Source: Verrucomicrobiaceae bacterium (lineage in GTDB: Bacteria > Verrucomicrobiota > Verrucomicrobiia > Verrucomicrobiales > Akkermansiaceae). Taken from it: a stretch of 64,000 nucleotides of DNA. The notes beneath the pieces are model-generated. The model had not been told where the DNA came from. It ran no database searches and saw only the letters and a program-made list of their open reading frames with translations. Position 1 is the first letter of the stretch. Each line of letters opens with the position of its first letter. Positions 4,846-48,206 of this stretch are shown one piece after another. The DNA is taken from assembly GCA_027484055.1 (NCBI GenBank), contig JAIXQH010000010.1, forward strand, positions 186,001-250,000, read 5' to 3'. The translations under genes were made by a program, and so were the position numbers.

Positions 4846-4868
4846 CGAGGAGATGGGCCGCCAGAGCC

Positions 4869-31206: not shown

Positions 31207-31238
31207 GGGATGGATTTTGGGTGGGCGCAGCCGATTTT

Positions 31239-31475
31239 TCAGCCATCGGTGGGCAGCGACTCCAGATGGAGTAAGGCTTTTTGGTAGCTGGCATTCGCCA
31301 AGTAGTGGCGCATTTGAGCATCGACCTCCGTCCGGTGCTGCTGAGTCCAAGCGGAAATTTCTTCCGAAACGCCTTTTAACGCTTCGAGATGATCCGCCGC
31401 GTCGCGATCCCGCCACGCGTGGTCGGCGATGATGGACTCCCGGCGGCGCAAGAGATCGATGAGTTGAGAAGTCAT
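31239..31475 (-). CDS. Small helical protein of unknown function
   Basis: The 78-residue protein is highly charged and predicted helical (LIDLLRRRESIIADHAWRD, EALKGVSEEISAWTQQHR). It has no signal peptide, no cysteines and no recognisable family. It starts 12 bp after the stop of the methyltransferase gene and is followed 32 bp later by the sulfatase, all on the minus strand, so it is probably part of that transcript. The good spacing and absence of strong alternative frames support it as a real gene. Confidence 0.55.
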   Translation of the reverse strand: MTSQLIDLLRRRESIIADHAWRDRDAADHLEALKGVSEEISAWTQQHRTEVDAQMRHYLANASYQKALLHLESLPTDG

Positions 31476-31487
31476 GGCGTGCTTGGA

Positions 31488-32648
31488 CTAACGGGAGGCG
31501 ATGACCTCGACGGTGAAGCCCTTGAGGTAACCGGTTTCTGGGATGGAAATGAGGATGGGGTGGTCGGCACGCTGGGCGTGATTCATTACGAAACGGGCGG
31601 ATTTCTTGGCATCCACAGAGGCGGAGACAAGGTTTTCCATGAACAGCTCGCGCGAGGCGTGGTAGGAGCAGCAAAAGGTAGAAAGTAGGCCGCCGCGGTC
31701 GAGCAGCTTGAGCGAGCGGAGGTGGATTTCTTTGTAGCCACGCATGGCGTCCATGAGGGTGGCCTTGTTGCGGGTGAAGCTTGGAGGATCGAGGATGATG
31801 AGGTCGTAGTCGGGCTTGGCGTGCTTGAGGAAATCGAAAACATTGTGCTCGAGGACTTCGATTTCGACGCCATTGAGCTCGGCATTTTTCTGCGCGGCGG
31901 CACAGGCGCTGGCGGAGACATCCACGGCGGTGACGTGGGCGGCACCGGCCTTGGCGCAGGCGAGAGCGAAGCCGCCTTGGTTGGTGAAACAGTCGAGCAC
32001 GCGCTTGCCCTTGGCCAGTGAGGCGACTTCGGCATGGGCTTGGAGCTGGTCGAGGTAGAGTCCGGTTTTCTGGCCGTCGAAGAGATCCACCTCGAAGGCG
32101 AGACCGTTGGCATGGACGATGAATGGGCCGGGATTTTCCCCGTGAAGCATTTCGATGCCCGGTTCCATGCCCTCGGCCTTGCGGTAGGGCGAGTCGTTGC
32201 GGAGCACGATGGAGGCAGGATTTAAAAGGGCGATGAGCGCGTCGCGGATGATTTCCTTCCGCAGATCCATGGCGAGGGTGAGCGTCTGGACGGATAGGTG
32301 GTCGCCGTAGCGGTCCACGATCAAGCCGGGGATGCCGTCGGACTCGGACCAGACGAGGCGAGCGAGGGTCTCGTCGATGCCACGCTGGCGGCGGTGCTCG
32401 ATGGCTTGGCCGATGCGGCGGGTGAAGAAGTCGAGGTCGAGGTCCTGTTTGCGGCGGGAAAAGCGGCGGGCGACGATTTGCGAAAGCGGGTTGTAAATGG
32501 CAGTGCCGAGCGGGCGGTCGCGGAAGTCCTTGAGGGTGATGACATCACCGGGCTTGGGATCGCCGAAGGATTTTTTGATCTCGGTGGCATAGATCCACTC
32601 GTGACCGTGAAAAATGCGTGCGCGTGGAGAAATGATGATGCCTGCCAT
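31488..32648 (-). CDS. rlmI: PUA-containing SAM-dependent 23S rRNA cytosine methyltransferase (RlmI-like)
   Basis: The 386-residue protein has an N-terminal PUA-like domain (about residues 1-75). A central EEHUD-like linker with GIPGLIVDRYGD follows, and then a Rossmann methyltransferase with motif I VLDCFTNQGGFALACA, an acidic residue in VTAVDVS and motif IV LILDPPSFTRN. The late cysteine in TFCCSYH is the expected catalytic nucleophile of RlmI-type m5C methyltransferases. It probably modifies 23S rRNA in the cytoplasm; the exact position is inferred from the family. Confidence 0.9.
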   Translation of the reverse strand: MAGIIISPRARIFHGHEWIYATEIKKSFGDPKPGDVITLKDFRDRPLGTAIYNPLSQIVARRFSRRKQDLDLDFFTRRIGQAIEHRRQRGIDETLARLVWSESDGIPGLIVDRYGDHLSVQTLTLAMDLRKEIIRDALIALLNPASIVLRNDSPYRKAEGMEPGIEMLHGENPGPFIVHANGLAFEVDLFDGQKTGLYLDQLQAHAEVASLAKGKRVLDCFTNQGGFALACAKAGAAHVTAVDVSASACAAAQKNAELNGVEIEVLEHNVFDFLKHAKPDYDLIILDPPSFTRNKATLMDAMRGYKEIHLRSLKLLDRGGLLSTFCCSYHASRELFMENLVSASVDAKKSARFVMNHAQRADHPILISIPETGYLKGFTVEVIASR

Positions 32649-32855
32649 GGGGCGGGAATGTCGTCAGGGGGGAGGGGACTTGTCGAATAAGAAACGAGGA
32701 AATCCGTGTCAGGGGCTATCCAACAGGGTTCGTGACGGTGGCCGGTGGGCACGCATGGGAAGGACTTGAACCGCCAACAATGCCAAGTTTGGGAGATGGA
32801 TAGGAGATCGGAGATAGGAGATAGGGGATGGGAGCTTAAAAAGTACTCAGCACTA

Positions 32856-32897
32856 CTCACTGCTCACTGCTCACTGCTCACTGCTCACTGCTCACTC
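32856..32897. repeat. 7-bp microsatellite, six copies
   Basis: CTCACTG is repeated six times in tandem, the last copy ending in C. It lies in a 360-bp gap that contains no gene, next to a purine-rich imperfect repeat (GGAGATA-like) at about 32805-32830. Confidence 0.9.
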
Positions 32898-32910
32898 GGC
32901 ACTTCTTTCC

Positions 32911-32955
32911 CTCCGCGTCCCTTCGCGACCTCAGCGCCTTTGCGGTAAACTCTTC
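32911..32955. repeat. 45-bp interspersed repeat, left copy
   Basis: The segment starts CTCCGCGTCCCTTCGCG and ends TTTGCGGTAAACTCTTC. A copy matching at 38 of 45 positions lies in the same orientation at 43314-43358. The two bracket the second restriction locus and its foreign genes. Confidence 0.75.
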
Positions 32956-33010
32956 CGATCAGAAACCAGCAGTGACGACCCACTCGCCGCCACTGCTGCC
33001 CCGCCTCATT

Positions 33011-33631
33011 TCAGACGACCATCATTGTCGCTACGTCGCTCCAGCCGCTTAGGCCGTTGGCACCGATGGCGCGCACGCGGAAGAAGTAATCCTTCCCCCG
33101 CGTCAGCCCGGTGAAGAGCATGTTCTGCGAACTCGACACCGCTGGCAGCGCGGTCCACGGGCCGTTGATGGGGTCCAGCGTGTAGGCGCATTCATAACTA
33201 TCGGCCAGCGGCACGGCCTTGCATTTGCACAGTGCCTCGCCTGCCGTGCCAGTGGTCTTGACGCGCAGGTCTTGCGGTGCGGGGAGCGGTCCGCTGCTGC
33301 GAATGGGCTTGGCTTTTAAGTCATACCCACTGGCGGCGAGTGCCACCAGGTTGCCGTCCGCCGTTAGTTCTAGCCCGGCGGCGAGTTTCTGCATCTGCAG
33401 CACCAACGCGTCTCGTTTCTGTTTGCGCAGTGCCGCGTTGGCGGCGGTGGCTTCGCCCGCTAGCGCGTTTTGCAGCGCATCGATGGCGGTTTTGAAAATC
33501 ACCATCGTCGGCACCGGAGCGGGGAAAAATCCCAGTCCCGGTGCGGTGGTGAGTGCGGTGTGGATCTTCATCGCTTTCGCGAGGATCGTTGCATCCGAGT
33601 CTTGGCTGAATCCTACACTGAGTTCGTTCAT
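33011..33631 (-). CDS. Fibronectin type III domain protein
   Basis: The 206-residue protein has a helical N-terminal half (KTAIDALQNALAGEATAA, KQKRDALVLQMQKLA) and one fibronectin type III domain in the C-terminal half (LPAPQDLRVKTTG, YECAYTLDP, GLTRGKDYFFRVRAIGANG, LSGWSDVA). No signal peptide is evident. The domain mediates protein or carbohydrate contacts; the function of this protein is unknown. The 22-bp tandem array lies 180 bp upstream of its start. Confidence 0.7.
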   Translation of the reverse strand: MNELSVGFSQDSDATILAKAMKIHTALTTAPGLGFFPAPVPTMVIFKTAIDALQNALAGEATAANAALRKQKRDALVLQMQKLAAGLELTADGNLVALAASGYDLKAKPIRSSGPLPAPQDLRVKTTGTAGEALCKCKAVPLADSYECAYTLDPINGPWTALPAVSSSQNMLFTGLTRGKDYFFRVRAIGANGLSGWSDVATMMVV

Positions 33632-34315
33632 ATGATTTCCTTTCTATGGGGTGTTCTTGCTACATTTGGGACTGGGAGACTTTCTCCAACCGCCAAAAGG
33701 CATCGCTCCACGGTGCAGTGCACCCACCTCCACGCCCCAGGTCCGGGGGCTCTTGCATGCAGTGCCACCCACCACTCCATGCAGGGGCCGGGTGCCCTGC
33801 ACCGTGGACCGCCCCCGACTGGACCCAGCGCACCCCCCAACTGGACCCAGCCCACCCTCCGACTGCATCCAGGTGACCCCGCCACTGCATGCAGTGCACC
33901 CCCCGACTGGGTGCAGTTGACCCCTCGACTGCATCCAGTGCAGCCCCCTCCTGCATGCAGGTGACCCCCACACTGCATCCAGCCGGAGGGACTGCTGGCG
34001 CGAGGACTGGCACAGGATCAAGGGTTTACGCTCAATGCGGGGGCGTGGACTCGCTAGCGTATTCAAAGGGACAGAGCTACTCACGACAGTGCAGTCGCAA
34101 GCAGACGGATCGGGGGATATCCGGTGAGAACTTAACATTCCGCCGCAGGCAAAGCAGTAGGCGGGCCGGATTATTGGAAATAAAAAGAACCTGCGGGAAT
34201 CGGTGGTTTTCTATGCTGCGAAACGTCTTCTTGCCGATCTCAATTTGGATAGATAGCGTGACGTTATACCGTTGACCGATTGCGACGGATGCAGCCGATC
34301 CTCCGAAACTTTGCC
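33632..34315. other. Long intergenic stretch without a supported gene
   Basis: About 680 bp separate the divergent fibronectin-type gene and the hsdR remnant. The centre is occupied by the 22-bp tandem array, with looser GCATGCAGTG-like copies at 33712-33790. Frames that stay open through it do so because of the repeat composition. Bases 34140-34310 show nothing I can name and should contain the original hsdR promoter. Confidence 0.5.
33813..33988. repeat. Tandem array of eight 22-bp units
   Basis: Eight consecutive units of exactly 22 bp start at 33813, 33835, 33857, 33879, 33901, 33923, 33945 and 33967. The consensus is CCCCGACTGCATCCAGTGCACC. The core CTGCATSCAG is palindromic or nearly so. 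Units differ at several positions, mostly in the core and the last six bases. There are no spacers, so it is not a CRISPR array. Confidence 0.9.
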
Positions 34316-35332
34316 ATGAAAAATCCGAAATCCACCTACTTCGACGGGCAGGAAAGCCAAAGCTCCGTCGTCCGGGAGGACACCATAGAATACGGCTTCA
34401 TCGGCACCCTCCAGAAGCTCAAATACGAGTATCGCCCGGACATCTCCAACCGCGCCGCGCTGGAAGCCAACTTCCGCGAGAAATTCGAAGCCCTAAACCG
34501 CGTCCGCCTAACGGATGCGGAGTTCGCCCGCCTGCTCGACGAGATCGTCACCCCGGATGTCTTCACCGCCTCGAAGACCCTGCGCGCCATCAACAGCTTC
34601 ACCCGAGACGACGGCACGCCGCTGAACTACACCCTCGTCAACATCAAGGACTGGTGCAAAAACACCTTCGAGGTCATCAACCAGCTCCGCATCAACACGG
34701 ACAACAGCCACCACCGTTACGATGTGATCCTCCTCATCAACGGCGTGCCCTGCGTCCAGATCGAGTTGAAGACCCTCGGCATCAGCCCGCGCCGGGCGAT
34801 GGAGCAGATCGTCGAATACAAGCACGATCCCGGCAACGGTTACACCAAGACGCTGCTCTGCTTCATGCAGCTCTTCATCGTCAGCAACCGCAATCAGACC
34901 TACTACTTCGCCAACAACAACGCCCGCCACTTCGCCTTCAACGCCGACGAGCGCTTCCTGCCTGTCTATGAGTATGCCGACGAGGAAAACCGGAAAATCA
35001 CCCGTCTCGACGCCTTTGCCGACGTTTTCCTGAAAAAGTGCGACCTCGGCCGCACCATCAGCCGCTACATGGTCCTCATCGCCAGCGAGCAGAAGCTCAT
35101 GATCATGCGGCCCTATCAGGTCTATGCCGTAAAGCACATGGTCACGTGCATCGATGACGACAACGGCAACGGCTACATCTGGCACACCACAGGCAGCGGC
35201 AAGACGCTTACCTCCTTCAAGGCCGCCACCCTGCTCAAGGAAAACGAGCACATCGAGAAATGCCTCTTCGTCGTGGATCGGAAAATCGGCACCATCATCT
35301 GTGCTGGCATGGAATACCCGTGGCTAAACTAG
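34316..35332 (+). pseudogene. 5' part of hsdR (type I restriction subunit R), truncated
   Basis: From MKNPKSTYFDG at 34316 the frame reads as the N-terminal half of HsdR. It contains the restriction nuclease domain (RYDVILLINGVPCVQIELKT with the D and ExK residues) and the start of the helicase domain (MIMRPYQVYAVKHM, and Walker A IWHTTGSGKTLTSF). Similarity stops at LFVVDRK (about base 35284), where the family would continue DLDxQT. The last 16 codons are unrelated and lead to a stop. The helicase domain is incomplete, so the product cannot translocate DNA. The matching downstream scrap is at 41737-41784. Confidence 0.88.
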
Positions 35333-35341
35333 CCGAGAAAA

Positions 35342-37633
35342 ATGAACACTAATCCCGCACTCGGACGCTATCAGCTCAACTGCTTCTCCGTTGAGTTCTC
35401 TGTTCAATCCGTCACAGTCTCTGAGCTTCCGTGGAGTGATGAAATGGACATGGGTGAGCTTCGGAAGAGCCTTGGGAATGATTGGTTCGTCCTGAGGCGT
35501 GGCGACAAAATTTACGGTCTGGCTACTGTTCCCGAGCCTGCAATAAGGTTCGGGCAAGTGAAGACGATTCTTCCGCTGAGTGATTACGATGGACTCGATT
35601 TCATGCGAGCACGATTGAACGAAGCTCTGCCAGAACTTTTGCCAAAATACCAAGCTGAGCGCGTTCGACCATTCCAATTCCTCGCCCGCAAGGATGAGTT
35701 TATCGCCCACTTCGCCGCCAATCGACAACTGCCTGAAGTCGTAAAGCGCGGATTTGCTGTCCGCCCACGATTTGAATTGGAAGCTCGGACTATCGAATTG
35801 ATTGAAGGAGATTTGCGAGTGGCTGTTGCAATGTCAGTGACGATGCAGTGGGAAATCTCAGCAAGCCTTGTTGACCTTACGAATCAGGGAGTTCAGCTCG
35901 ATGGCCTCTACGTCGTCCTCAGGCAACCTCAACCAGGCGAACGACGGTTGGTTGGCCGCGTCAAGAGCGTTAACCAGGGCAACGTGGAACTTGACGAGAC
36001 AATGGACGGACGAACGTCCATTGCGGCTGATTTGGTTCGTTTGGAAGGAAGCAAATTCAGTTTCAAGCGCTGTCTCTCCAAACTGCTTGGCCAACGGTAT
36101 CGCGACTTCGATGCGCAGCGCGAATCATGGGAGGCCAGCTATACCAGCGGGCCGAGTTTCGATAATGTGCTGGGCAAGTTGTCGAGCAGCCTCAAACCAG
36201 TGAATCTTGGTCCTGGCATCATGGCAACAATAGGTGCCGCCATTCCGATTGAGAACACAGAGGGAGCGCCTATCTATCGGGAGCTTCCTCCAGTCGAGTA
36301 TTGTTTCGACGCCGCGAAGACGAAGCGGGACACAATTCCGTGGAATGGTTTGGCTAAGTTCGGTCCTTACGACAGCGACACTTTCGAAAAGAGGACTCCA
36401 CGTATTTTGGTTGTTGTGCCCCAGTCTGAGCAAAACAAGGCAGAACAGGTGTTTGGCACTTTCCTCGACGGTGTGCCGAACGGTCAATTCCCGGTCGGGT
36501 TCGCCCGGTTGTTTAATCTACGCCAAGTCAAACTCGATACCTGCCCGGTAGCGGATCACCGTCTTGCACAGAACCAACACGCTACGGCATACCGCGCAGC
36601 GATTGAATCTCATCTCAGCAGCGGGGCCAGCTATGACGCAGCGCTGGTCGTAGTGCCTGATTTCAGTCGTCAGTTGCCGGACGACCATAACCCATATCTG
36701 CATGCCAAGGCGCTGCTGTTGACGAATGGCATTCCTTCTCAGGAGTTACGTGTTGCGACACTCCACCAACCAGCTACATCACTTCCATACACACTCCGAA
36801 ACATTGCCGTCGCGCTTTACGCGAAAATGGACGGAGCACCGTGGACCGTCAGTCAGCCGCGAACCTACAACGACGAGATTGTGATTGGCATGGGCATGGC
36901 AGAGGTGGCCGGAAGCCGAGTCGAGAAACGGCAACGCCACATGGGCATCACCACTGTCTTTCTTGGGGACGGGAATTTCCTCCTCTCGAACATTTCGCGG
37001 GAATGCACATACGACGAGTATCCTGAAGTCCTGAAGGCTTCGACAAAGTCCATTCTCGCCGAAGTCAAACGGCGCAACGGTTGGCAGCCCGGTGACCGAG
37101 TAAGGATTGTGTTTCACTCGTCCAAGCCGCTGAAGAACGTGGAAATTGACGAACTCATCGCCGAGTGCGTCGCCGATGTCGCCGGGGAACAGATTGTCGA
37201 GTTTGCGTCCCTCCAAGTCTCCCAAGACCACCCGTTCAAAATTATCGACCGCTCCCAGCTGGGAAAGAAATACGGCCAGACGATGAAGGGTGTCTACGCC
37301 CCCGCCCGTGGATTTATCATGCAGCTTGGAGCCAGCACCCGACTTTTGGCGACGAATGGACCAGACCAAATCAAACGCCCCCTCAGCCCTCTCCCTGCGC
37401 CGCTATTGGTGCATCTGCATAAACGTTCCACGTCGAAGTCGCTGGACGCGTTGACGGAACAAATCCTCAAGTTTACCTCCATGACTTGGCGGTCCACATC
37501 TCCTGCGGCGATGCCAGTGACCATTTACTACTCGGAATTGATCGCCGAGTTGCTGGCCCGCTTCCGCACACTGCCTGATTGGTCACCCGCACTGCTCAAC
37601 ACCAAGCTCCGCGCGAGCAAGTGGTTCCTATGA
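35342..37633 (+). CDS. Long-B prokaryotic Argonaute, catalytically inactive, RsAgo-like
   Basis: The 763-residue protein follows Rhodobacter sphaeroides Ago closely from memory: PFQFLARKDEFI and the VVLRQPQPGERRLVGRV linker in the N-terminal half, then MID and PIWI. The MID pocket for a 5'-phosphorylated guide looks intact, with Tyr452 and Lys456 (PYLHAKALLL), Gln467 (GIPSQELR) and Lys495, and the C-terminal WFL as in RsAgo. The PIWI domain (about 510-763) has lost the DEDX tetrad: the first Asp position falls in VIGMGMAE and the RDG site is FHSSKPL. It should bind a small guide and target nucleic acid without cutting, so it needs an effector. The CHAT gene starts in its stop codon. Confidence 0.93.
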   Translation: MNTNPALGRYQLNCFSVEFSVQSVTVSELPWSDEMDMGELRKSLGNDWFVLRRGDKIYGLATVPEPAIRFGQVKTILPLSDYDGLDFMRARLNEALPELLPKYQAERVRPFQFLARKDEFIAHFAANRQLPEVVKRGFAVRPRFELEARTIELIEGDLRVAVAMSVTMQWEISASLVDLTNQGVQLDGLYVVLRQPQPGERRLVGRVKSVNQGNVELDETMDGRTSIAADLVRLEGSKFSFKRCLSKLLGQRYRDFDAQRESWEASYTSGPSFDNVLGKLSSSLKPVNLGPGIMATIGAAIPIENTEGAPIYRELPPVEYCFDAAKTKRDTIPWNGLAKFGPYDSDTFEKRTPRILVVVPQSEQNKAEQVFGTFLDGVPNGQFPVGFARLFNLRQVKLDTCPVADHRLAQNQHATAYRAAIESHLSSGASYDAALVVVPDFSRQLPDDHNPYLHAKALLLTNGIPSQELRVATLHQPATSLPYTLRNIAVALYAKMDGAPWTVSQPRTYNDEIVIGMGMAEVAGSRVEKRQRHMGITTVFLGDGNFLLSNISRECTYDEYPEVLKASTKSILAEVKRRNGWQPGDRVRIVFHSSKPLKNVEIDELIAECVADVAGEQIVEFASLQVSQDHPFKIIDRSQLGKKYGQTMKGVYAPARGFIMQLGASTRLLATNGPDQIKRPLSPLPAPLLVHLHKRSTSKSLDALTEQILKFTSMTWRSTSPAAMPVTIYYSELIAELLARFRTLPDWSPALLNTKLRASKWFL

Positions 37634-39024
37634 ACGCGGCAATGACACAGAGTTTTGGTGCCGAGTTGTCGCGAATCGCGGCAAACTTGAAGGACTCAAC
37701 GGTCTGGCCCTCGCCAGCGACCGGTCTTGCACTTCAACTTCTAAAACTCTGTGGCTGTGACGAGCGCAGGACCAGTCTACTCGGCCCAACTCCCTTTCCC
37801 GGTGGGCCGCTCGATGCAGCTCCCGCCGCCGCCGCTGCTGGATTCGCTATGGCCGTGTCTGAGCCACAGCGTGAGGAACTGTCGCGCTGGCGGGAAGGGA
37901 TGAAACGACTTGTGAAGCGGGAACCATTTCCACGCGACCGCCAAACCTTCGCCTACCGCCCGTCAGAGTTGGTCGGGCTTGCGGTTGGCATTTCGGCGAC
38001 AGAAGACCGAAGCAGTTTGTCAGCTGCATGGATTCGGTCGGTTGTCCAAAATTTGCCCAGCAAAAGCCCTCCAACAAATGCGTGGGCGCTGCTCCTATAC
38101 CACTACGCCGCTGCCATTCTTGGAGTTCAATTCCCGCTCGCAATCCCAGCCCGACTTTCGGAATACGACACCACCGAGCTCGGATTGCTTATTGCACTGC
38201 TGGCACAAGGCAGCGTGTTCAAGGCAGCCGAGTTTGACGCGAGTGCAGCGCAGAATGCCTTGCTCGAGCGAGTGGTAACTGAAAGCCCCATTGCTCGGGA
38301 CACCGAAAGACTGGCCGCCTTGTTTGGTGCCCTTTCACTGAGCCTGAAAACCCGCCTCTCTGAATCCAGCTCATTCGCCCAAACGCTTCCAACAAACACG
38401 ATCATGAAACAGAAAATCCTCTTCCTTGCCGCAAATCCGACCGGCACAACGCCATTGGCCCTCGATGAAGAATGCCGCCAAATCACGGAGAAAATCAGGG
38501 CAGCCGCCCACCGTGACTCGCTAGAATTGATAACGCGTTGGGCCGTGCGCCCCGAGGACTTACTCCAGCACCTGAACGAGCATAGACCCCACGTCGTTCA
38601 TTTTAGCGGGCACGGCACGGCTACGGAGGAGATTGTGCTTCTCGACAAGGACAAGAATCCGAAGACCGTTCCTGCGCCGGCGCTAAAGCAGCTCTTCGCG
38701 ACGTTGAAGGATAACATTCGTGTCGTGGTCCTGAATGCCTGCTTCTCGAAGCAACAAGCCTCCGCGATCACTGAAGTGGTGGACTGTGCGATCGGCATGA
38801 ACAAGGCCATCGGTGACGACGCAGCGATCGCGTTTGCTGCTGCATTTTATCAAGCAATCGGTTTCGGAAGGTCCGTCAAAGTCGCGTTCGAGTCAGGGAA
38901 GAGCGCCTTGATGTTGGAAGGGATTCCTGAGGAGAAGACGCCCGAACTCCTTTGCAAAACGGGTGTGGACCCAGCCGCAATCGTGTTGGTCGAGCCTGAC
39001 ATCTCACAGCGAAACCCCAAGTAG
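37630..39024 (+). CDS. CHAT-domain caspase-like protease with a unique N-terminal region
   Basis: The start ATG at 37630 overlaps the Argonaute stop (ATGA), which implies coupled translation. The 464-residue protein has a C-terminal CHAT protease (residues about 260-445): KILFLAANPTGTTPLALDEE, the dyad His328 in HFSGHG and Cys371 in VVLNACFS, and AFYQAIGFG. Residues 1-258 form a helical region I cannot assign. A second in-frame ATG at 38404 begins exactly where stand-alone CHAT proteins begin, so a short form could be made. CHAT enzymes cleave proteins after activation by partners, as with the TPR-CHAT protease of type III-E CRISPR. Here the neighbours suggest activation by Argonaute or by the downstream STAND protein. 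Confidence 0.88.
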   Translation: MNAAMTQSFGAELSRIAANLKDSTVWPSPATGLALQLLKLCGCDERRTSLLGPTPFPGGPLDAAPAAAAAGFAMAVSEPQREELSRWREGMKRLVKREPFPRDRQTFAYRPSELVGLAVGISATEDRSSLSAAWIRSVVQNLPSKSPPTNAWALLLYHYAAAILGVQFPLAIPARLSEYDTTELGLLIALLAQGSVFKAAEFDASAAQNALLERVVTESPIARDTERLAALFGALSLSLKTRLSESSSFAQTLPTNTIMKQKILFLAANPTGTTPLALDEECRQITEKIRAAAHRDSLELITRWAVRPEDLLQHLNEHRPHVVHFSGHGTATEEIVLLDKDKNPKTVPAPALKQLFATLKDNIRVVVLNACFSKQQASAITEVVDCAIGMNKAIGDDAAIAFAAAFYQAIGFGRSVKVAFESGKSALMLEGIPEEKTPELLCKTGVDPAAIVLVEPDISQRNPK

Positions 39025-39053
39025 GCTCATCGGATTCCGGCGCTGCTCCGCCG

Positions 39054-41720
39054 GTGAGCCAGACTATTGCAGCAACTGCGGGTTTGCGCGAGGGAAAAGC
39101 TTCCGCTGCGCCATGTTACTTGCCGGAGCGTAACCCGCACTTCCGAGGCCGTAAACAGGACCTTTCCCGCTTAAGAGAAGCGTTGAACCAATCACGCACA
39201 ATCGGCATCACGCAGCAGGTTGCGCTCTGTGCTTCCGGTGGTGTCGGGAAATCCTCAGTAGCTCTCGAATTCGCGTGGGACTGTTTTGCCGCCGATCCCC
39301 AGATTTATACTGGTGGAGTGTTTTGGTGCGATTGCAGAAGTCGGGATATTTCAAGCTTGGCCGATGGCCTTGCATCATTCGCCTCGTCGCTTGGTCTGAG
39401 TGCCACCGACGACAACGATCTCATGCCTACGGCTCGACGGGTGCGCGACAGACTCACAAGCGGTCCTCCGTGCTTGCTCGTCCTTGATAACGTCATTGAT
39501 TCTGAGCAATGGAGAGACAAGGAATGGAACACGCTTTTGCCTGGCGGCAACTGTAGTCGCCTGTTGACTACTAGATCGGAAACCGTGGGCGACCAGCGCG
39601 TTCCCATGTTGAGTCTTGCATCTCTGACTGAGGAAGACGCGAGGGAGCTTCTTCATTCATATCGTCAGGATGTGCCGCTCCGCGTAAAAGACGATTCGAT
39701 CCGTAGTGTCATCGAGTGGTTTGGCGGTTTGGCCATCGGTCTGACAGTGGTCGGAATCTACCTTGGAATCCACGCCAAGGTAACGTGGGACGAATATTGG
39801 CGAAGCCTGCGCGATAAGAAACTCGACACAGTTCGTGAAACTGAGGATCTCGCGTCTCCTGCGGACTACACAAATCGCGTTGACGCGGTAATTGACGACA
39901 TTTTTCGATCACTCTCTTCTTCCGAGAGGCGAGCGCTATTTTACGTATCCCTCCTTCCGGGTGAAGACGTAAGCGACCGTTGGCTTCGCGAACTGCTTGA
40001 GGACGACCTAAACACGCGGCGGATTTCAGGCAACGTGCCCCCAGGATACGCTTCTCTTCCGCATGCCATCATCACTCGATTGATGCAAAGGGGTATACTT
40101 CTTCGTTCAATCGAAACTCCCGTTCGCAGGACCGTCTCTGTTCATCAAGTCGTCCGGGAGCGAATCCGCGAACTCCTCAAGGTTGAACGAGGGCTCAGCC
40201 ATGAACTCTCCGCGCATGTGCGTCAACTTGCCACAAGAGTTTACCACCGCTCCCGACAATGGACGCGCGCCATATCCGAGTGCACGGACATGTCAGAAGC
40301 TCAGAGGCTTTTGGATTCCATGCTGAGCGCCGACTGTGACCCAGATGTTTACACTTTCACCGCGATCCTATCGAAGGCAGTAACTTTTGGTGAAGCGAAG
40401 GCGATATTCGCGCAGATGAACGCGTCTGGCCACAAGCCGACGCTGTTTACGTTCAACACGCTTCTCACTAAATCGGAAACCTACGATGACGCGAAGGCAG
40501 TGTTTGCGCAATTGCAGGCAGCGGGCGAGGATCCGACGGAATTCACTTTCAATACGCTACTGTGGAAGGCAGAGGATTTCAGCGAAGCACAATGTATTAT
40601 TGAGCAAATCAAGGACGCCAACCTCGAGCCAAATGCTAGAGCATATAACCGACTCTTATCGCTTGCGACAAAATATGATGAAGTGAATGCAATCATGGAG
40701 GAAATGCAGGAAATTGGCTACTCGCCACACTTGTTTTTTGTTCGGAAACTCCTTTGGTTGGCGAGGTCATTCGATGCAGCGGAGGCAGCTGCGATTCGCA
40801 TCGAAGCAGAGGGTGGGAAGCTCGAAGAACCGCAGTTTGCGGCATTGTTGAGAAGAGCGGAGACCCAGGAGCAGATGGATCTTGTGGTGGCCCGTGCAGA
40901 AGCAGAAGGTTTTCCGTTTAAATTGAAAGTGCTCAATCGAAGACTTAATGGCGCAGCTACATTTACTGACGCGAAAGCCCTCTTTCTTCAATGTCTGGAA
41001 TCTGGTCAGCAGCCCATTTGGGTTACTTTTCGAAGCTTGCTCGTTCACGCAGGGAATGATGAAGAAATCTTATGGACCGCTGAGCAAATGCGGTTGGCTG
41101 GTGTGCAACCGAAGGAAGGGAATTTGATAAAGATGTTATTGAAGAAAAAAACCGAACAAGAGGCGCTAACCATTGTTGCCAAACTGGAAGCCTCTGGGGT
41201 TCGAATAATCGGAAGCACCCGCAAGTGGGGATTACCGGCGGCAGCGAATTACCCTGAGGCCAAGGAAATGATTGCAGATATGCTGACGAAGAATGAGAAG
41301 CTCACGGTGGTTCAGTTCACATCTCTATTTTCGCAACAAGAGGATTTGCCGCACGTCAAAGAGGTGCTCAGTTGGTATTATGGTCTTCCATATCATCCTT
41401 CCGACCCTCTGAACGCGTTGGTTGCGAGCTTAAGGCAGCTAGACCGCGTGGACGAGGCAATGACTGTCGTCCTCCAACACCCGCACCTCTCGGCTGGGCA
41501 ACGGTTAATGCGCGAGTTTCCAGATAAGGCACTAACATTTTTCCAAACTACTAAGAATACGGATTCTTCCCATCCGACAGCCGACCTAGCCCTCGGAATT
41601 CTTGCGATGGAAACAAACAGACAAGATGACGCAAGGATCCATTTTCAAGGAGCGCTTCAGCGAGCCAAGCATCCCAAGGCGATTGAGACAATTCAATCGA
41701 AGCTCAAGCTTCTGGGTTGA
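39054..41720 (+). CDS. STAND (NB-ARC) NTPase with eleven 32-residue PPR-like repeats
   Basis: The 888-residue protein starts with GTG at 39054. HFRGRKQDLSRL leads into the NTPase: Walker A GGVGKSS (62-68), Walker B LLVLDNV (141-147), LLTTRSE (170-176) and the GxP-like FGGLAIGLTVVG (223-234), then a winged-helix region to about 375. Residues 427-778 are eleven consecutive 32-residue helical hairpins resembling pentatricopeptide repeats, for example KPTLFTFNTLLTKSETYDDA. A TPR-like end follows (about 840-885). STAND proteins oligomerise when their repeat domain binds a ligand; PPR modules usually bind RNA. No enzymatic effector domain is fused, so the CHAT protease is the probable output. It follows the CHAT gene by 29 bp. 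Confidence 0.85.
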   Translation: MSQTIAATAGLREGKASAAPCYLPERNPHFRGRKQDLSRLREALNQSRTIGITQQVALCASGGVGKSSVALEFAWDCFAADPQIYTGGVFWCDCRSRDISSLADGLASFASSLGLSATDDNDLMPTARRVRDRLTSGPPCLLVLDNVIDSEQWRDKEWNTLLPGGNCSRLLTTRSETVGDQRVPMLSLASLTEEDARELLHSYRQDVPLRVKDDSIRSVIEWFGGLAIGLTVVGIYLGIHAKVTWDEYWRSLRDKKLDTVRETEDLASPADYTNRVDAVIDDIFRSLSSSERRALFYVSLLPGEDVSDRWLRELLEDDLNTRRISGNVPPGYASLPHAIITRLMQRGILLRSIETPVRRTVSVHQVVRERIRELLKVERGLSHELSAHVRQLATRVYHRSRQWTRAISECTDMSEAQRLLDSMLSADCDPDVYTFTAILSKAVTFGEAKAIFAQMNASGHKPTLFTFNTLLTKSETYDDAKAVFAQLQAAGEDPTEFTFNTLLWKAEDFSEAQCIIEQIKDANLEPNARAYNRLLSLATKYDEVNAIMEEMQEIGYSPHLFFVRKLLWLARSFDAAEAAAIRIEAEGGKLEEPQFAALLRRAETQEQMDLVVARAEAEGFPFKLKVLNRRLNGAATFTDAKALFLQCLESGQQPIWVTFRSLLVHAGNDEEILWTAEQMRLAGVQPKEGNLIKMLLKKKTEQEALTIVAKLEASGVRIIGSTRKWGLPAAANYPEAKEMIADMLTKNEKLTVVQFTSLFSQQEDLPHVKEVLSWYYGLPYHPSDPLNALVASLRQLDRVDEAMTVVLQHPHLSAGQRLMREFPDKALTFFQTTKNTDSSHPTADLALGILAMETNRQDDARIHFQGALQRAKHPKAIETIQSKLKLLG
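40332..41387 (+). repeat. Coding repeat: eleven PPR-like units of 96 bp
   Basis: At protein level the units begin at residues 427, 459, 491, 523, 555, 587, 619, 651, 683, 715 and 747, with no insertion or deletion. Most open with G-x-x-P, have an aromatic residue and then N, T or R before a Leu-Leu pair (FTFNTLL, AYNRLL, VTFRSLL), and end in an AxxxFxxM-like second helix. Canonical PPRs have 35 residues; these are three shorter. The DNA copies have diverged, so the array is not recent. Confidence 0.85.
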
Positions 41721-41736
41721 TTGACAGTATGCGTCG

Positions 41737-41784
41737 TTCATCGGCTTCACCGGAACGCCCATCGAAAAGACTGACGCGAACACG
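41737..41784 (+). pseudogene. 16-codon scrap of hsdR
   Basis: The translation FIGFTGTPIEKTDANT is a signature of the HsdR helicase domain (the TGTP motif). It lies 16 bp after the STAND/PPR-like gene and marks the right side of the insert. Twelve bases later the sequence becomes hsdM, so the rest of hsdR has been deleted. Confidence 0.85.
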
Positions 41785-41795
41785 CCGCCTGATCC

Positions 41796-42860
41796 GGCAA
41801 GAAGTTGGGCGAGTTCTACACCCCGCAGCAGATTTCCGACATCCTCTCCGCCATCGTCACGCTGGACAGCCAGGATCCGAAGACCGGCCCCAAGATGCGG
41901 CTGGATAGCGTGCTGGACTTCGCCTGCGGTTCCGGTTCCCTGCTGCTGAACGTGCGTAGGCACATGAAATACGACAAAGAAGGCAAGGACATGGGAGGCA
42001 CCATCGGCAAGATTTTCGGTCAGGAGAAAAACATCACCACCTACAACCTCGCCCGCATGAATATGCTGCTGCACGGGGTGAAGGACACGGAGTTCGACAT
42101 CTTCCACGGCGACACCCTGCTCAACGAGTGGGACATGATGCGGGAAGCGAACCCGGCCAAGAAACCCAGTTTCGATGCCATCGTCGCCAACCCACCCTTC
42201 AGCTACCGCTGGGAGCCAACCGACGCGCTGGCCGACGACGTCCGCTTCAAAAGCCACGGCCTCGCCCCCAAGTCCGCCGCCGACTTCGCCTTCCTGCTCC
42301 ACGGCTTCCATTTCCTCAAAGACGAAGGCGTGATGGCGATCATCCTGCCGCATGGCGTGCTCTTCCGTGGCGGTGCCGAGGAACGCATCCGCACCAAGCT
42401 GCTCAACGACGGACACATCGACACCGTCATCGGCCTGCCCGCCAACCTCTTCTACTCCACCGGCATCCCCGTCTGCATCCTCGTGCTCAAAAAGTGCAAG
42501 AAGCCCAACGACGTGCTCTTCATCAACGCCGCTGAGCACTTCGTGAAAGGCAAACGCCAGAACCAACTGACGCCCGAGCACATCTCAAAGATCATCGACA
42601 CCTACCAGTTCCGAAAGGAAGAGCCCCGCTACTCCCGCCGGGTGGAGATGGACGAGATCAAGAAGAACGACTTCAACCTGAACATCTCCCGCTACATCAG
42701 CACGGCAGTGGGTGAGGCGGAGATTGATCTAGCAGCGACTCATGGAGAACTGGTAGATATTGAGAAAGCCGTCCGAGCGGCGACCGTAAAGCACAATGGT
42801 TTTCTAAAAGAGTTAGGGTTGCCCTTGCTGCCGCTTGAGGAGCATGACTTGCCGGGCTGA
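41796..42860 (+). pseudogene. hsdM lacking its 5' part (type I DNA methyltransferase)
   Basis: From GKKLGEFYTPQQISDIL the frame is HsdM up to a normal-looking C-terminus. It contains SAM-binding motif I (DFACGSGSLLLNV) and the catalytic NPPF motif (VANPPFSYRW), followed by MAIILPHGVLFRGGAEERIR. About 350 residues remain; the N-terminal 130-180 residues that pack on HsdS and DNA are gone. A TTG at 41805 could serve as a start, but activity is unlikely without the N-terminal domain. No hsdS gene follows. The family is different from the hsdM fragment at 18666-18836. Confidence 0.85.
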
Positions 42861-42929
42861 GAGAGAGCAACCTTCCCGCCTCCGCGTTTCGTTTCAACCC
42901 TCCTCCTCTCATGGGCTTTTCATCGGCAC

Positions 42930-43302
42930 AGCGGACGGATTCCGCTGCTCCATAGACGAGGCGAGAGAGCACCGGAGAAGAGGGACTCGCGCAAAGCCGC
43001 AAAGGCGCAAAGGAAGAAGGGGGTGGGGGATTGAAGATTTAAGATTTTCTTCCCTTTGTTCTCTATGTGTTCTTTGTGGTGAGATCGTTTCGTCATCCAT
43101 TGAAGCGACAGGAGTGTCGCTGCTCCTTAGCTTCAATCTGCTCCGCGTTCATCCGCGTGCATCGGTGGTTCTCTTCATCTTGCTGGACGGCTTGGCGATC
43201 AATGCCCCTCCGCGCTTCGATTGCATCGATCATATGGATTTGTCCGATTCGCGGTTTCCTCATTTCTTGGCGATTCATGCACAAAGCGGACAGAGGCCGC
43301 TT
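42930..43302. repeat. Three REP-like hairpins (AGCGACA-GGAG-TGTCGCT family)
   Basis: A perfect 7-bp stem lies at 43104-43121 (AGCGACAGGAGTGTCGCT, followed by GCTCC). Related 6-bp stems lie at 42930-42946 (AGCGGA/TCCGCT, followed by GCTCC) and at 43284-43302 (AAGCGG/CCGCTT, followed by CTCCG). The shared stem type and trailing GCTCC suggest one family of short intergenic palindromes. Confidence 0.65.
43144..43171. repeat. Isolated right-type arm of the GAACCACGGAT hairpin family
   Basis: CGCGTTCATCCGCGTGCATCG followed by GTGGTTC matches the arms at 19367-19394 and 19773-19800 almost exactly. No left-type partner is adjacent. Confidence 0.75.
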
Positions 43303-43313
43303 CTCCGTATTTT

Positions 43314-43358
43314 CTCCGCGTCCCTTTGCGGACTCTGCGGCTCTGCGGTGAACTCTTC
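43314..43358. repeat. 45-bp interspersed repeat, right copy
   Basis: It starts CTCCGCGTCCCTTTGCGG and ends CTGCGGTGAACTCTTC, matching the copy at 32911-32955 at 38 of 45 positions in the same orientation, 10.4 kb apart. Confidence 0.75.
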
Positions 43359-43468
43359 ATGGAAGCAGCGGGAGGGAAATCCGGGCCGGAACTTTCCTCA
43401 TTTCGCAGTGGAGCGAGATTTTCCCTTGCTCCCGCCCGCCCCAGTCCCTACGCAAGGGGCTACCAACC

Positions 43469-43732
43469 ATGGGACAACAATCGAAAAAGATCATTAAACG
43501 TCGTCGCCGCGCTGACTATCTCAAGCGCAAGGCTGAAGCGACTAAGCTCGGTGGGATCGCTAAGAAACCTGCTGTCAAGAAGGCCGAAGTGGCCAAAAAA
43601 GCTCCTGCAAAGAAGGCTGCCGCTAAAAAGGCTCCTGCGAAGAAGGTGGCGAAGAAAGTGGCAGATGAGGCTGTGCTCGATGCTGCTCCAGCGGTGGAGG
43701 CCGCAGTGGAGGAGGCTCCGACGGCTGAATAA
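43469..43732 (+). CDS. Small lysine/alanine-rich basic protein (histone H1-like tail)
   Basis: The 87-residue protein has a basic start (QQSKKIIKRRRRADYLKRK). A low-complexity middle of AKKAPAKKAA-type repeats follows, and then an acidic alanine-rich end (VEAAVEEAPTAE). The repeats resemble the C-terminal tail of histone H1 and of bacterial nucleoid proteins, so nucleic-acid binding is likely but not proven. It has its own terminator. The terminator lies inside the 3' end of the convergent transglutaminase gene. Confidence 0.75.
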   Translation: MGQQSKKIIKRRRRADYLKRKAEATKLGGIAKKPAVKKAEVAKKAPAKKAAAKKAPAKKVAKKVADEAVLDAAPAVEAAVEEAPTAE

Positions 43733-43753
43733 GCCCCATCGAAAGACCCACTT

Positions 43754-45787
43754 TCATTTTTCATCAAGCCGCCCCGCGAGGGGTGGCTTTTTTTGTTCCG
43801 GCAGAGCGGCGAGTATTTTTACCAACTCTTGGGTGAGGGTGCTGAGCCGGGCATGATGCTCTGCGCTCGCCGGTTGTGGGTCGAAGCGCAGGCGTTGGTG
43901 AAGTCGGATGGCCTCTACCAGTGCTGCACTGCTGGGCAGCGCGAGGCGGGAGAGCCAAGTGGCGAGTGGAGTGCCGGGTGGGCGGGTGCCGAGGGCTTTT
44001 TCCGCGTGAGATTCTAGGGCGTTGAGCGGTGTCTGGATGGGGGCGGCAGTGGAGTAGAGATAGGGACGGGGGGAGTCTCCATGCAGCTGGTTTCTGGATT
44101 TCCAAAGCCGTCTCATGATGAATGCGAGCACGCCCAAGCCGAGGGCGCCCATGATGAGCGTGGCGTAGAGGCGGTTGGCAGGGCGGTTGCGCCAGAGGAA
44201 GAAGTCTTCCCGGAAGCGTTTGACGGCGTCGTTGAAGCGTTGGGTGGTAGAAAGTTGAATCGGGGCGCTGGTCTGCCAGCTGGGCGGGGTGGTATCGAAG
44301 TCGATCCAGCGGCCAGCGCTTTCATCCCAGACGCGGCACCAAGCATGGCCATGAGTGCCACGGATGAGGTATTCGCCGTTTTTCAAATCCCGCTCGATGA
44401 CCGCGTAGCCAATGCTGTAGCGGGCAGGGATGCCCGCCTCGTGAAGGAGTAAGGTGGCGGCCGTGGCGAAATACTCGCAATGACCGGCCCGGGTGGTGGT
44501 GAGGAATTGGGCGATGGCGCTGGGAGTGGTGGAGTTCTTACCCCGGCGTTGAGTGCTCTCGATGGTGAGATTGCGGGTGTAGGTGAAATTTTTAAAAAAC
44601 CACTGGTGAAGGACGGTGAGCTTGGCGCTGAGGCTGGGTTGCTGGTCGAGCTTGAGTTCTGCGAGGACTTGGCGGAGTGCTTCCTTTTCGCGGGTGGGAA
44701 CGGCGATGTCCTCTTTCGTGAGCGGTGGGTTTTCCGGGCTAAGTCGGTTTTCCCAGAGCACGCTACCTTCGATGACGGATTGCTTCGGAAAGATGCGCAC
44801 CGTGCCTTGTGAGTTGCGTTCGAGGCCGTCTTGCTCGAAGTCGCGCAGACTGGCGGCGTCGCCGGGGAGTGGCAGTGGCGTCTCGGCGAAGGCGGCTCCG
44901 CGTAAAGTGAAGCGGGGTAGCGCATCAGCAACGGACTGCAACTGGATTTCTTCAGAGCTTCCCTGTGCGAGCAGGAAATAGGGGACTTGCCGAAAAAGGC
45001 GCGTATCAAGGTCGGTGAAGGCGGTATCACTCTGAGGCAGGATGGACCAATTTCCGGAGCGGTAGCTGTTATAACTCGCGGTGCGAAGCAGGCGTGGCAC
45101 GGTGGCTGAGCCTTCTGGTCTGAGACGCCAGGCGATCTCCGGTGAGAGCTCGACCCGACCGGGACGACCGACCATAGTGGTTGTGGTATTAGGGTCAAAG
45201 CCCGAGCGCCGTGGAGCGCTGCCGCCGAGGAAATCATCGAGCCGCTGGATGGCGAATTGACCGGTAAGGGCGATGCCCGCAGCCACGATCAGAGAGATGA
45301 CTAGGGCAAGTGGGCGGCTGTGAGTGGCGGCTAGCAGCATCCAGCCGGTGAGGATGACGACGCCGGGTAAATACGCCACGCTGCCTGACTGGGGGCCAAG
45401 GGTGGATGCCACGAGGGCGGTGACGAAGTAGAAGTTTCCGAAGTTGAAGTGGATGGGCGACTCCGTCAGCCCGAGGCGGAGATTGCGTTCGCGACGTTGC
45501 TTGGAGAGAAAGGAAAAACTGTTGAGTGGAAGGGAGTCATGGAACCCGTAGCTCTGGACGAACTGCATGGGTAGCAGCAGAGCGGGAAGCCAAGTCAGCA
45601 GCTTCGACATCACCATGGCGGGTGCGGTATCGAGTGCGATCAAAACGGCGGCGACGAGGATGGCCGCCGCATTGAGATGCCAGGTGCGCTCAGTCTGAGA
45701 TGGGGTGAAATCCCAGCGAACTTTCAGCCAGTGCGCACTTTCAACGATGAGCGCGAGGATAATGCCGCTGACCAGGCGCTCGGTCAT
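43754..45787 (-). CDS. Transglutaminase-like membrane protein (TgpA family)
   Basis: The 677-residue protein has an N-terminal set of membrane helices (residues about 5-195, six or so spans), a large extracytoplasmic part and another helix near residue 555. The papain-like transglutaminase core is clear: catalytic Cys in TTRAGHCEYFATA, His in GTHGHAWCRVW and Asp in WIDFDTTP. This is the DUF3488-transglutaminase layout. Such genes cluster with DUF58 and MoxR genes, as here, and probably act together at the envelope; the substrate is unknown. The last codons overlap a terminator of the opposite gene. Confidence 0.88.
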   Translation of the reverse strand: MTERLVSGIILALIVESAHWLKVRWDFTPSQTERTWHLNAAAILVAAVLIALDTAPAMVMSKLLTWLPALLLPMQFVQSYGFHDSLPLNSFSFLSKQRRERNLRLGLTESPIHFNFGNFYFVTALVASTLGPQSGSVAYLPGVVILTGWMLLAATHSRPLALVISLIVAAGIALTGQFAIQRLDDFLGGSAPRRSGFDPNTTTTMVGRPGRVELSPEIAWRLRPEGSATVPRLLRTASYNSYRSGNWSILPQSDTAFTDLDTRLFRQVPYFLLAQGSSEEIQLQSVADALPRFTLRGAAFAETPLPLPGDAASLRDFEQDGLERNSQGTVRIFPKQSVIEGSVLWENRLSPENPPLTKEDIAVPTREKEALRQVLAELKLDQQPSLSAKLTVLHQWFFKNFTYTRNLTIESTQRRGKNSTTPSAIAQFLTTTRAGHCEYFATAATLLLHEAGIPARYSIGYAVIERDLKNGEYLIRGTHGHAWCRVWDESAGRWIDFDTTPPSWQTSAPIQLSTTQRFNDAVKRFREDFFLWRNRPANRLYATLIMGALGLGVLAFIMRRLWKSRNQLHGDSPRPYLYSTAAPIQTPLNALESHAEKALGTRPPGTPLATWLSRLALPSSAALVEAIRLHQRLRFDPQPASAEHHARLSTLTQELVKILAALPEQKKPPLAGRLDEK
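43766..43794 (+). terminator. Rho-independent terminator of the lysine-rich gene
   Basis: AAGCC-G-CCCC and GGGG-T-GGCTT form a stem with one G-T pair and the tetraloop GCGA, followed by seven Ts. It lies 33 bp after the stop at 43732 and inside the coding end of the minus-strand transglutaminase gene. Confidence 0.85.
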
Positions 45788-45864
45788 GACACCCCAGAAA
45801 ATGAGGGTGCAACCGAGAAGGTAGCGGGGTGCTGGATGGACGGTATGAATCGGCGCGGGTCGGG

Positions 45865-47262: not shown

Positions 47263-47270
47263 TAAGATAC

Positions 47271-48206
47271 TTAGACTGGAACGGGGATTTGTTCAACTAG
47301 TTCAGCCACGATCTTACGCGCACTGAGCCCTGAATACTTCGCCTCAGGGACTAGCACCAAGCGATGAGCGATGACGTCTGCCGCCACGGACTGGATGAGT
47401 TCTGGGGAGACAAAATCCATCCCTTGGAAAAGCGCCAAGGCTTGAGAAACTTTCATCAAGGCCAAGGAGGCACGAGGACTCGCCGCGAGCTGGATCGAGG
47501 GATGAGAGCGGGTGGCGGCGACTAGGGCGACGACATAGTGGCGCAGCTCATCGCTAAAACGGACATGGCGAGCGGCCTCCATGAGTTCCATGATTTCTTC
47601 ACGGCTGACTGCTGGATTCAAGAGATCAACGGGATGTGATTCCGCTTGATCGGATAAAATCGCCGCTTCTTCTGCTGCGCTGACGTAGCCGAGTGAACAC
47701 TGCATGGAAAAACGATCCATCTGTGCCTCTGGCAGCGGATAGGTGCCACGGAATTCCACCGGATTCTGCGTGGCGATGACGAAAAATAGACCATCAAACC
47801 CATAGCGCTCACCATCGATGGTGGCCTGTCGTTCGCCCATCGCTTCCAGCAGTGCGCTCTGAGTGCGTGGGGAAGCACGGTTGATCTCATCGGCGAGTAA
47901 GATGTCCGTAAAGATCGGCCCTGGGTGGAAGCGGAACTCTTGCGAGCGTGGGTCGAGCACAGAAACTCCCAAAATGTCGGAGGGCAATAGATCTGGAGTG
48001 AACTGCACCCGCTTGAACACCGTGTCACGGATCGACTTGGCGATTGCCTTGGCCAAGGTGGTTTTCCCCGTCCCTGGGAAATCCTCCAACAAGACATGCC
48101 CTCCAGAAATGAAACAGGCAAGAACACGGCGCACCGTCTCGTGCTGCCCGCGAATGACAGAACAGACCGCTGACTCCAAGCGGTTAGCAGTGGTCGAATG
48201 GCTCAT
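47271..48206 (-). CDS. MoxR-family AAA+ ATPase
   Basis: The 311-residue protein has Walker A (EDFPGTGKTTLAKAIA), Walker B (ILLADEINRASPRTQ), the sensor segment IATQNPVEFRGTYPLPEAQMDRF and the C-terminal lid with SPRASLAL. MoxR ATPases act as chaperones for VWA or DUF58 partners. I start it at 48206 (MSHSTTANRLE), just 22 bp after the pyrD stop; the in-frame extension upstream overlaps pyrD. Confidence 0.92.
   Translation of the reverse strand: MSHSTTANRLESAVCSVIRGQHETVRRVLACFISGGHVLLEDFPGTGKTTLAKAIAKSIRDTVFKRVQFTPDLLPSDILGVSVLDPRSQEFRFHPGPIFTDILLADEINRASPRTQSALLEAMGERQATIDGERYGFDGLFFVIATQNPVEFRGTYPLPEAQMDRFSMQCSLGYVSAAEEAAILSDQAESHPVDLLNPAVSREEIMELMEAARHVRFSDELRHYVVALVAATRSHPSIQLAASPRASLALMKVSQALALFQGMDFVSPELIQSVAADVIAHRLVLVPEAKYSGLSARKIVAELVEQIPVPV

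Follow-up and report, generated by a model that had tools for sequence, protein, structure and literature searches.

Gene organization of the locus

The window analyzed here is the whole stretch of 64,000 nt taken from contig JAIXQH010000010.1 of a Verrucomicrobiaceae bacterium (assembly GCA_027484055.1, positions 186,001-250,000 of the forward strand), and the coordinates of the three genes described and of their flanks are positions within it. Three intact open reading frames, all on the + strand and without internal stops, follow each other in the order Argonaute, CHAT, STAND, as an earlier note on this DNA had described. The first (35342..37633) encodes a long-B Argonaute of the RsAgo type with 763 aa, recognized by PDB, PADLOC and NCBIfam matches. 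The second (37630..39024) encodes a helical-CHAT protein of 464 aa, identified by Pfam, PADLOC and a structure model. The third (39054..41720) starts with GTG and encodes a STAND protein of 888 aa with NB-ARC and PPR regions, found by Pfam and PDB matches. The CHAT start codon overlaps the Argonaute stop codon as ATGA, both in the window and in the related locus L002 of a second genome, and the STAND start lies 29 bp 3' of the CHAT stop in the window; overlap and spacing are as given in that note.

The trio is bordered by pieces of type I restriction genes on the same strand. On its 5' side lies the N-terminal part of a broken hsdR (34280..35332), comprising HSDR_N and the start of the helicase (Pfam HSDR_N, 1.6e-34; PADLOC REase_I, 1.8e-120, profile positions 4-309 of 976). 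On its 3' side are found a scrap of hsdR (41731..41785, ASFIGFTGTPIEKTDANT), which has a counterpart 3' of STAND in L002 too, and a 5'-truncated hsdM (41805..42860; Pfam N6_Mtase, 1.3e-94; PADLOC MTase_I from profile position 186). The segment common to the window (35325..41785, + strand) and L002 (7696-14174) displays 80.1% identity over 6490 blastn columns and begins 17 bp before the Argonaute start. The three genes had been taken for the whole foreign insert in a broken hsdR: the broken gene is indeed present upstream, but the shared segment also carries the hsdR scrap past the STAND stop.

Scans for promoters and terminators returned nothing beyond what was obtained with shuffled sequence, and no promoter of the unit's own was recognized by this weak test. 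As the shared segment starts so close to the Argonaute gene, the unit probably depends on the host locus for its expression. An inverted repeat (39037-39054) with perfect 6-bp arms and a loop of 6 nt reaches as far as the first base of the STAND start codon; it is identical in L002 (11408-11425) and might couple the translation of STAND to that of CHAT. A frameshift fusion of CHAT and STAND was considered and rejected, the STAND frame being open only from 39000.

The Argonaute

The best PDB match of the first protein is RsAgo (6d8a, E 1.4e-198), the NCBIfam model NF052569 scores it at 805 bits against a cut-off of 700, and PADLOC assigns it to pAgo_II. Judged by these matches, it is a full-length RsAgo-type long-B pAgo, in line with the RsAgo-like Argonaute of the earlier note. 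In all 28 aligned Argonaute homologues a Gly occupies alignment column 516, which we take to correspond to the first catalytic Asp of the PIWI motif. The Y, K, Q and K residues of the MID pocket, which accommodates the 5' phosphate of the guide, are kept in 28/28 of the same homologues; in the window protein they are Y452, K456, Q467 and K495, aligned with Y463, K467, Q478 and K506 of RsAgo. The available part of PMC6299218 names the RsAgo residues of this pocket and describes substituted PIWI residues in long-B Argonautes. Three features of long-B pAgo systems are all found here, namely a full-length pAgo of the RsAgo kind with substituted PIWI residues, the guide pocket and the position of the Argonaute upstream of its partner.

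The helical-CHAT protein

The C-terminal part of the second protein (P0003) is a CHAT caspase-fold protease domain (aa 258-458, 38401..39003, + strand), scored by Pfam at 40.7 bits against a cut-off of 24. Its His328 and Cys371, already pointed out in the earlier note, are invariant in all 23 aligned family members. The same note had missed the nature of the N-terminal half (aa 1-247, 37630..38370, + strand). PADLOC matches aa 7-238 of it to profile positions 2-211 of 378 of Aga_Helical-REase PDLC02411 (4.4e-28), a model that also matches an EcbAgaN-like protein encoded in locus L016 (2.9e-111). The related model PDLC02407 matches as well (4.9e-16), and PDLC02404 has no match in P0003 yet is the best model for five of the six nuclease partners described in the next section. 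BLASTP aligns P0003 from its first residue to aa 243 with the helical-nuclease of locus L029 (31%, 3e-22), and the comparison of profile A1 with profile A5 gives an alignment confined to the helical part (96.7%, E 3.9e-10). The A2 profile detects the L029 protein at 106 bits and that of L013 weakly at 9.8 bits; it scores EcbAgaN and the L014, L030 and L031 proteins no better than their shuffled copies, and finds no match among PDB sequences. Taken together, these alignments identify the N-terminal half as the helical domain found in nucleases that accompany Argonautes (Aga_Helical-REase; bAgaN, the effector of BPAN). No nuclease domain of P0003 is matched by Pfam, and CHAT occupies that place.

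A first structure model, built with 23 sequences, was poor in its CHAT half (69.0). The second, built with 64 sequences, reaches a pLDDT of 89.3, shows helices over residues 3-247 and, with a pTM of 0.55, does not place the helical and CHAT domains against each other. The fold comparison of this second model concerns aa 256-458 and uses a Foldseek library up to 8 April 2026; the EcAgo/EcbAgaN entry 23wq is absent from the match lists obtained with that library. Met259 (38404..38406, + strand) stands directly before the CHAT motif, and in the family comparison a Met is found within 5 residues before the motif in 35/40 proteins; it may be a fossil or an internal start.

Partners of other long-B Argonautes

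Nine other Argonaute loci were read, originating from 5 of 15 plasmid records (H21-H25) and from 4 of 10 genomes without helical-CHAT (G749, G734, G638 and G705). In six of the nine (L013, L014, L016, L029, L030 and L031), the gene following the Argonaute encodes a helical-REase with a C-terminal DpnII-MboI nuclease; that of L016 matches the solved EcbAgaN (PDB 23wq, 1.7e-195), EcAgo being present in the same entry. The remaining three consist of a SIR2 partner adjoining a distant Argonaute of the class (L033), a partner labeled 'Aga_Unknown' by PADLOC (L034) and a short Piwi gene without partner among transposases (L015). CHAT thus stands where related Argonaute partners carry a DpnII/MboI-type nuclease, which is an effector swap. 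This natural exchange of nuclease for protease behind one kind of helical domain opens the way to testing directly whether the domain is the switch between Argonaute and effector. If the helical domain alone were the switch, it would provide a portable guide-controlled switch.

The position of the protease gene also bears on what the enzyme may cut. The tight coupling of the two genes by the ATGA overlap could be explained by a protease acting on the Argonaute itself or on the machinery of its guides, resulting in Argonaute turnover and not in cell death. This is very improbable, given that relatives carry a nuclease or SIR2 protein in the corresponding place, both being known killing effectors according to the accessible portion of PMC10620215. 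Overlapping Argonaute and partner genes are also found in L014 and L016.

Several other genes were observed at these loci. The 'Aga_Unknown' gene of L034 (6211-7086, PDLC02409), located after a long-B-like Argonaute on a Hymenobacter plasmid, has no Pfam match above cut-off. In L029 (genome G749), an open reading frame of 535 aa without any Pfam or PADLOC match follows the Argonaute-nuclease pair at 4680-6287. Other defense genes adjoin the long-B Argonaute operons, namely a DrmMI-like methylase (L029), HmaC (L030) and HmaB with HmaC (L033). The helical half of a distant helical-CHAT protein from a 7538-bp contig (P0051) fits PDLC02407 best (4.8e-41), which makes a second nuclease-to-CHAT swap possible.

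The STAND protein

The third protein (P0002) contains an NB-ARC NTPase domain (aa 34-260, 39153..39833, + strand) with the Walker A motif GGVGKSS from aa 62 and LLVLDN from aa 141, scored by Pfam at 38.3 bits against a cut-off of 23.5. Its repeats score 64.1 bits with PPR_2 against a cut-off of 30 and are clearest over aa 409-560 (40278..40733, + strand), where PPR_2 and PPR_3 of Pfam and designed or natural PPR proteins of the PDB are matched. As Pfam's own cut-off is passed, the repeats that the earlier note had called PPR-like are true PPR. Apaf-1 (1z6t) is matched at 1.2e-5 in the PDB, along with designed PPR proteins. By these matches the third gene product is an Apaf-1-like NB-ARC protein with PPR repeats, displaying the architecture of bacterial NLR-like STAND proteins, an NB-ARC with Walker motifs followed by C-terminal repeats.

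Only 19 residues precede the shared block in P0002, leaving no N-terminal effector in cis. All operon-type STAND proteins (those of the window and L002, P0244 and P0245) have only 19-25 residues in this slot. Five relatives (P0246-P0250) carry a DUF4062-like part in the effector slot, which passes the Pfam cut-off in P0249 and P0250, falls short of it in P0246 and P0247, and is recognized by alignment only in P0248. In P0083, a partial protein from an Opitutaceae record, CHAT, NB-ARC and PPR are joined in one chain without an Argonaute domain. The empty slot of the operon-type proteins and this fusion point to a probable cooperation of CHAT with this STAND family, whether in cis or in trans; the fusion itself makes it probable that protease and STAND are a single device divided into two proteins. 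The proposal of the earlier note that STAND may relay a signal to CHAT is upheld as far as a link between the two proteins is concerned, which the P0083 chain supports; relay, scaffold, sensing of its own and a role as substrate are all compatible with such a link. Between the window and L002, STAND identity amounts to 61% in the PPR part, 74% in NB-ARC and 78% at the C-terminus, and the PPR part, the most variable region, could fit a sensor.

Recurrence of the genes

The possibility raised in the earlier note that homologues of the three genes are never found together elsewhere can be set aside, as the full trio is present in a second genome of the same genus (L002, JAIXOR010000073, equal to G215:C86). 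A scan of genome contigs gave this one locus, and further genome scans added no third genome with the trio, G487 contributing weak STAND matches only. The helical-CHAT protein is rare: it was found in 2/387 genomes of the phylum, 2/260 of the family and 2/308 of the order, the same two each time. Searches of viral contigs with the helical domain and with the Argonaute found no relatives, and none of 69 plasmid records has a place covering 80% of the CHAT protein.

In order to extend the comparison, protein entries for Argonaute and helical-CHAT were paired when their longest contigs were equally long and their sources identical, a procedure in which the DNA itself is not seen. Among the matches listed, 6 of 39 helical-CHAT entries have such an Argonaute twin (among at least 119 Argonaute entries), with longest contigs of 6057, 7245, 5698, 5158, 8134 and 3902, and these probably represent six further Argonaute/helical-CHAT pairs. 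The control consisted of 81 generic CHAT proteins listed, one of which shares the longest-contig size of an Argonaute, from different sources. The other 33 of the 39 helical-CHAT entries listed have no Argonaute twin; the procedure does miss real pairs, the L002 contig (217198) appearing as a CHAT entry without a listed Argonaute though the Argonaute is present.

For eight pairs, the distances of Argonaute, helical domain and CHAT were compared by Mantel tests with 20000 permutations. The correlation is highest between Argonaute and helical domain (r 0.92, p 0.0013), with 0.74 (p 0.0033) for Argonaute and CHAT and 0.76 (p 0.0034) for helical domain and CHAT; these values are a hint, as the sequences are few and related. 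In the Argonaute tree all eight CHAT-paired Argonautes fall into one supported group (100/99) of 10 rows, two of them with unknown partner. Of the rows for which a different partner is known, the REase locus L029 lies closest to this group, and the joins of L013, L014, L016, L030, L031 and L033 are unsure on account of their long outer branches. The presence of the Argonaute-partner domain in the CHAT protein and the recurrence of the trio in a second genome bear out the coupling of Argonaute and CHAT claimed in the earlier note, which is well supported at the level of sequence.

The correlation with the helical domain also weighs on the question of what triggers the protease. CHAT and STAND might form a split NLR-like defense protein triggered by its own PPR sensor, the Argonaute tuning or restraining the protease through the helical domain. 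The single CHAT-NB-ARC-PPR chain of P0083 without Argonaute domain would suit such an arrangement, as would the frequency of CHAT as an effector with many other N-termini among the matches listed and the restraint of GbbAgaS by its Argonaute in BPAS, reported in the available part of PMC10620215. It is nevertheless improbable, because half of the protease protein is an Argonaute-partner helical domain that tracks the Argonaute over the eight pairs, whose guide pocket is moreover kept in every homologue aligned.

The weakest link of the trio is the place of STAND, seen directly at two loci only, both from one genus. Close STAND homologues number 22 among the matches listed, far fewer than those of Argonaute or helical-CHAT, a count that may reflect a limit of the search since only candidates sharing most words were scored. 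One of the 39 CHAT entries listed has a STAND twin (693943, with no listed Argonaute of that size), and none of the 119 Argonautes listed has one. These low numbers, together with the highest dS of the three genes (see below) and the variability of the PPR part, would be expected if Argonaute and helical-CHAT formed a working pair and STAND were a separate defense gene or a substrate of the protease instead of a platform. Such a two-gene system is judged unlikely: the same NB-ARC-PPR is found fused to CHAT in P0083, operon-type STAND proteins have no effector of their own, and the low STAND count may come from the word-sharing filter of the protein search.

Comparison with known systems

The closest described system is BPAN (EcAgo/EcbAgaN, PMC10620215), in which an inactive long-B Argonaute with a kept guide pocket likewise comes first and is followed by a partner whose N-terminus belongs to the same helical family. 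Here, unlike in BPAN, CHAT replaces the DpnII-MboI (PD-(D/E)XK) nuclease domain and a third gene, STAND, is present. BPAS and BPAM (PMC10620215) share with the trio an inactive long-B Argonaute with an exchangeable effector, which is a SIR2 protein in BPAS and a membrane protein in BPAM; P0003 has no SIR2 match in Pfam or PADLOC. Craspase (type III-E CRISPR) resembles the trio by a CHAT protease with a His-Cys pair and, in its logic, by guide-directed recognition beside CHAT. It differs in that the Argonaute here takes the place of gRAMP and the Aga-helical domain that of TPR; P0003 has no TPR match (Pfam, PADLOC), the helical domain standing before CHAT. No gRAMP (Cas7-11) was matched among only five locus genes profile-searched with Pfam and PADLOC, and 30000-48000 contains no direct repeat of at least 22 bases that would indicate a CRISPR array. 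SAVED-CHAT (PDB 8tl0) possesses a SAVED domain, whereas none is matched in P0003, where the PADLOC SAVED_CHAT model covers only positions 307-451 of 498 (aa 278-421). Bacterial NLR-like STAND proteins and Apaf-1 have NB-ARC and C-terminal repeats in common with P0002; here, in contrast, the repeats are PPR, there is no effector in cis and the likely effector is the adjoining Argonaute-partner protein.

Effectors of long-B Argonautes comprise nucleases, SIR2 (NAD+ loss) and membrane proteins, with og_54 as a minor other class, according to the part of PMC10620215 that was available; CHAT has 0 occurrences in the available part of PMC6299218. No system combining Argonaute or PIWI with CHAT, a long-B Argonaute with a protease, or CHAT with NB-ARC and PPR was found in the literature searched, an absence that is provisional as preprints and most subscription papers lie outside the search. 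That a described system with these three parts is not known, as the earlier note remarked, agrees with this outcome. The trio is best called a variant of long-B pAgo systems, for which the provisional name "BPAC" is used; the nuclease that defines BPAN, the SIR2 of BPAS and the TPR and array of Craspase do not fit it.

Proposed mechanism

The reading we prefer, with a probability of roughly 0.6, is that a guide-directed long-B Argonaute switches on the CHAT protease, that STAND contributes as a platform or as a second sensor, and that the outcome is abortive infection. By analogy with EcAgo/EcbAgaN, the Argonaute loaded with small guide nucleic acids would meet complementary invader nucleic acid and would then act on the helical domain in such a manner that the CHAT active site is freed. 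For EcBPAN, which is triggered by the CloDF13 origin, RNA-guided recognition of DNA that activates the partner and leads to abortive infection is described, and by analogy the same may hold here; the description is given in the available text of PMC10620215, which also attributes distinct effectors and abortive infection to long-B Argonautes in general. The same text reports that EcbAgaN formed no stable complex with EcAgo under the published conditions, so that a lasting complex of Argonaute and helical domain should not be assumed. The NB-ARC-PPR protein, with its effector slot empty, may join CHAT as an oligomerizing platform or as a second sensor, as P0083 suggests. The active protease would finally cut cell proteins, and the infected cell would be stopped or killed. 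If this reading is correct, proteolysis by a caspase relative would be added to the effectors of long-B Argonautes, and an Argonaute and an Apaf-1-like NB-ARC protein would be tied to one protease.

A bolder version, put forward tentatively and with more doubt than trust, is a guide-directed bacterial apoptosome. The Argonaute would read the invader, an Apaf-1-like NB-ARC wheel with a PPR arm would assemble, and both would fire the Argonaute-tethered caspase-fold protease; the PPR arm would read nucleic acid and the tether domain would be borrowed from the BPAN nuclease. Were it true, this would be the first Argonaute with proteolysis as its output and the first effector common to an Argonaute and an NLR-like STAND protein.

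Selection and genomic context

The proposed function can be confronted with the selection acting on the genes. Between the window and L002, dN/dS amounts to 0.10 for Argonaute, 0.14 for CHAT and 0.13 for STAND, which argues for purifying selection on all three. The trio of L002 lies between an hsdM-like piece, recognized by eye in translation, and the hsdR scrap. Broken hsdR and hsdM pieces around both loci and the failure of the weak promoter test would agree with a passenger that has decayed among restriction-gene debris and lost its function; it is hardly credible that three open reading frames would then stay intact in two genomes at such dN/dS ratios, with catalytic and guide residues kept.

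The dS values differ by gene (Argonaute 0.66, CHAT 0.22, STAND 1.67) and thus indicate partly separate histories. Identities of the helical and CHAT parts also vary by homologue, with 87% and 72% in P0015 and 64% and 89% in P0021, respectively; both observations imply that the parts recombine. In P0252 a STAND (NB-ARC) piece of this family continues in frame into the C-terminal part of an HsdR. Together with the hsd pieces at both loci, this protein shows that the unit keeps company with type I restriction genes. Two repeated regions were also observed in the window: a degenerate tandem array at 33812-33984, closely preceding the hsdR remnant, in which units of 22, 44 and 66 bp recur with 72-76% matches, and a 129-bp tandem duplication at 19017-19275.
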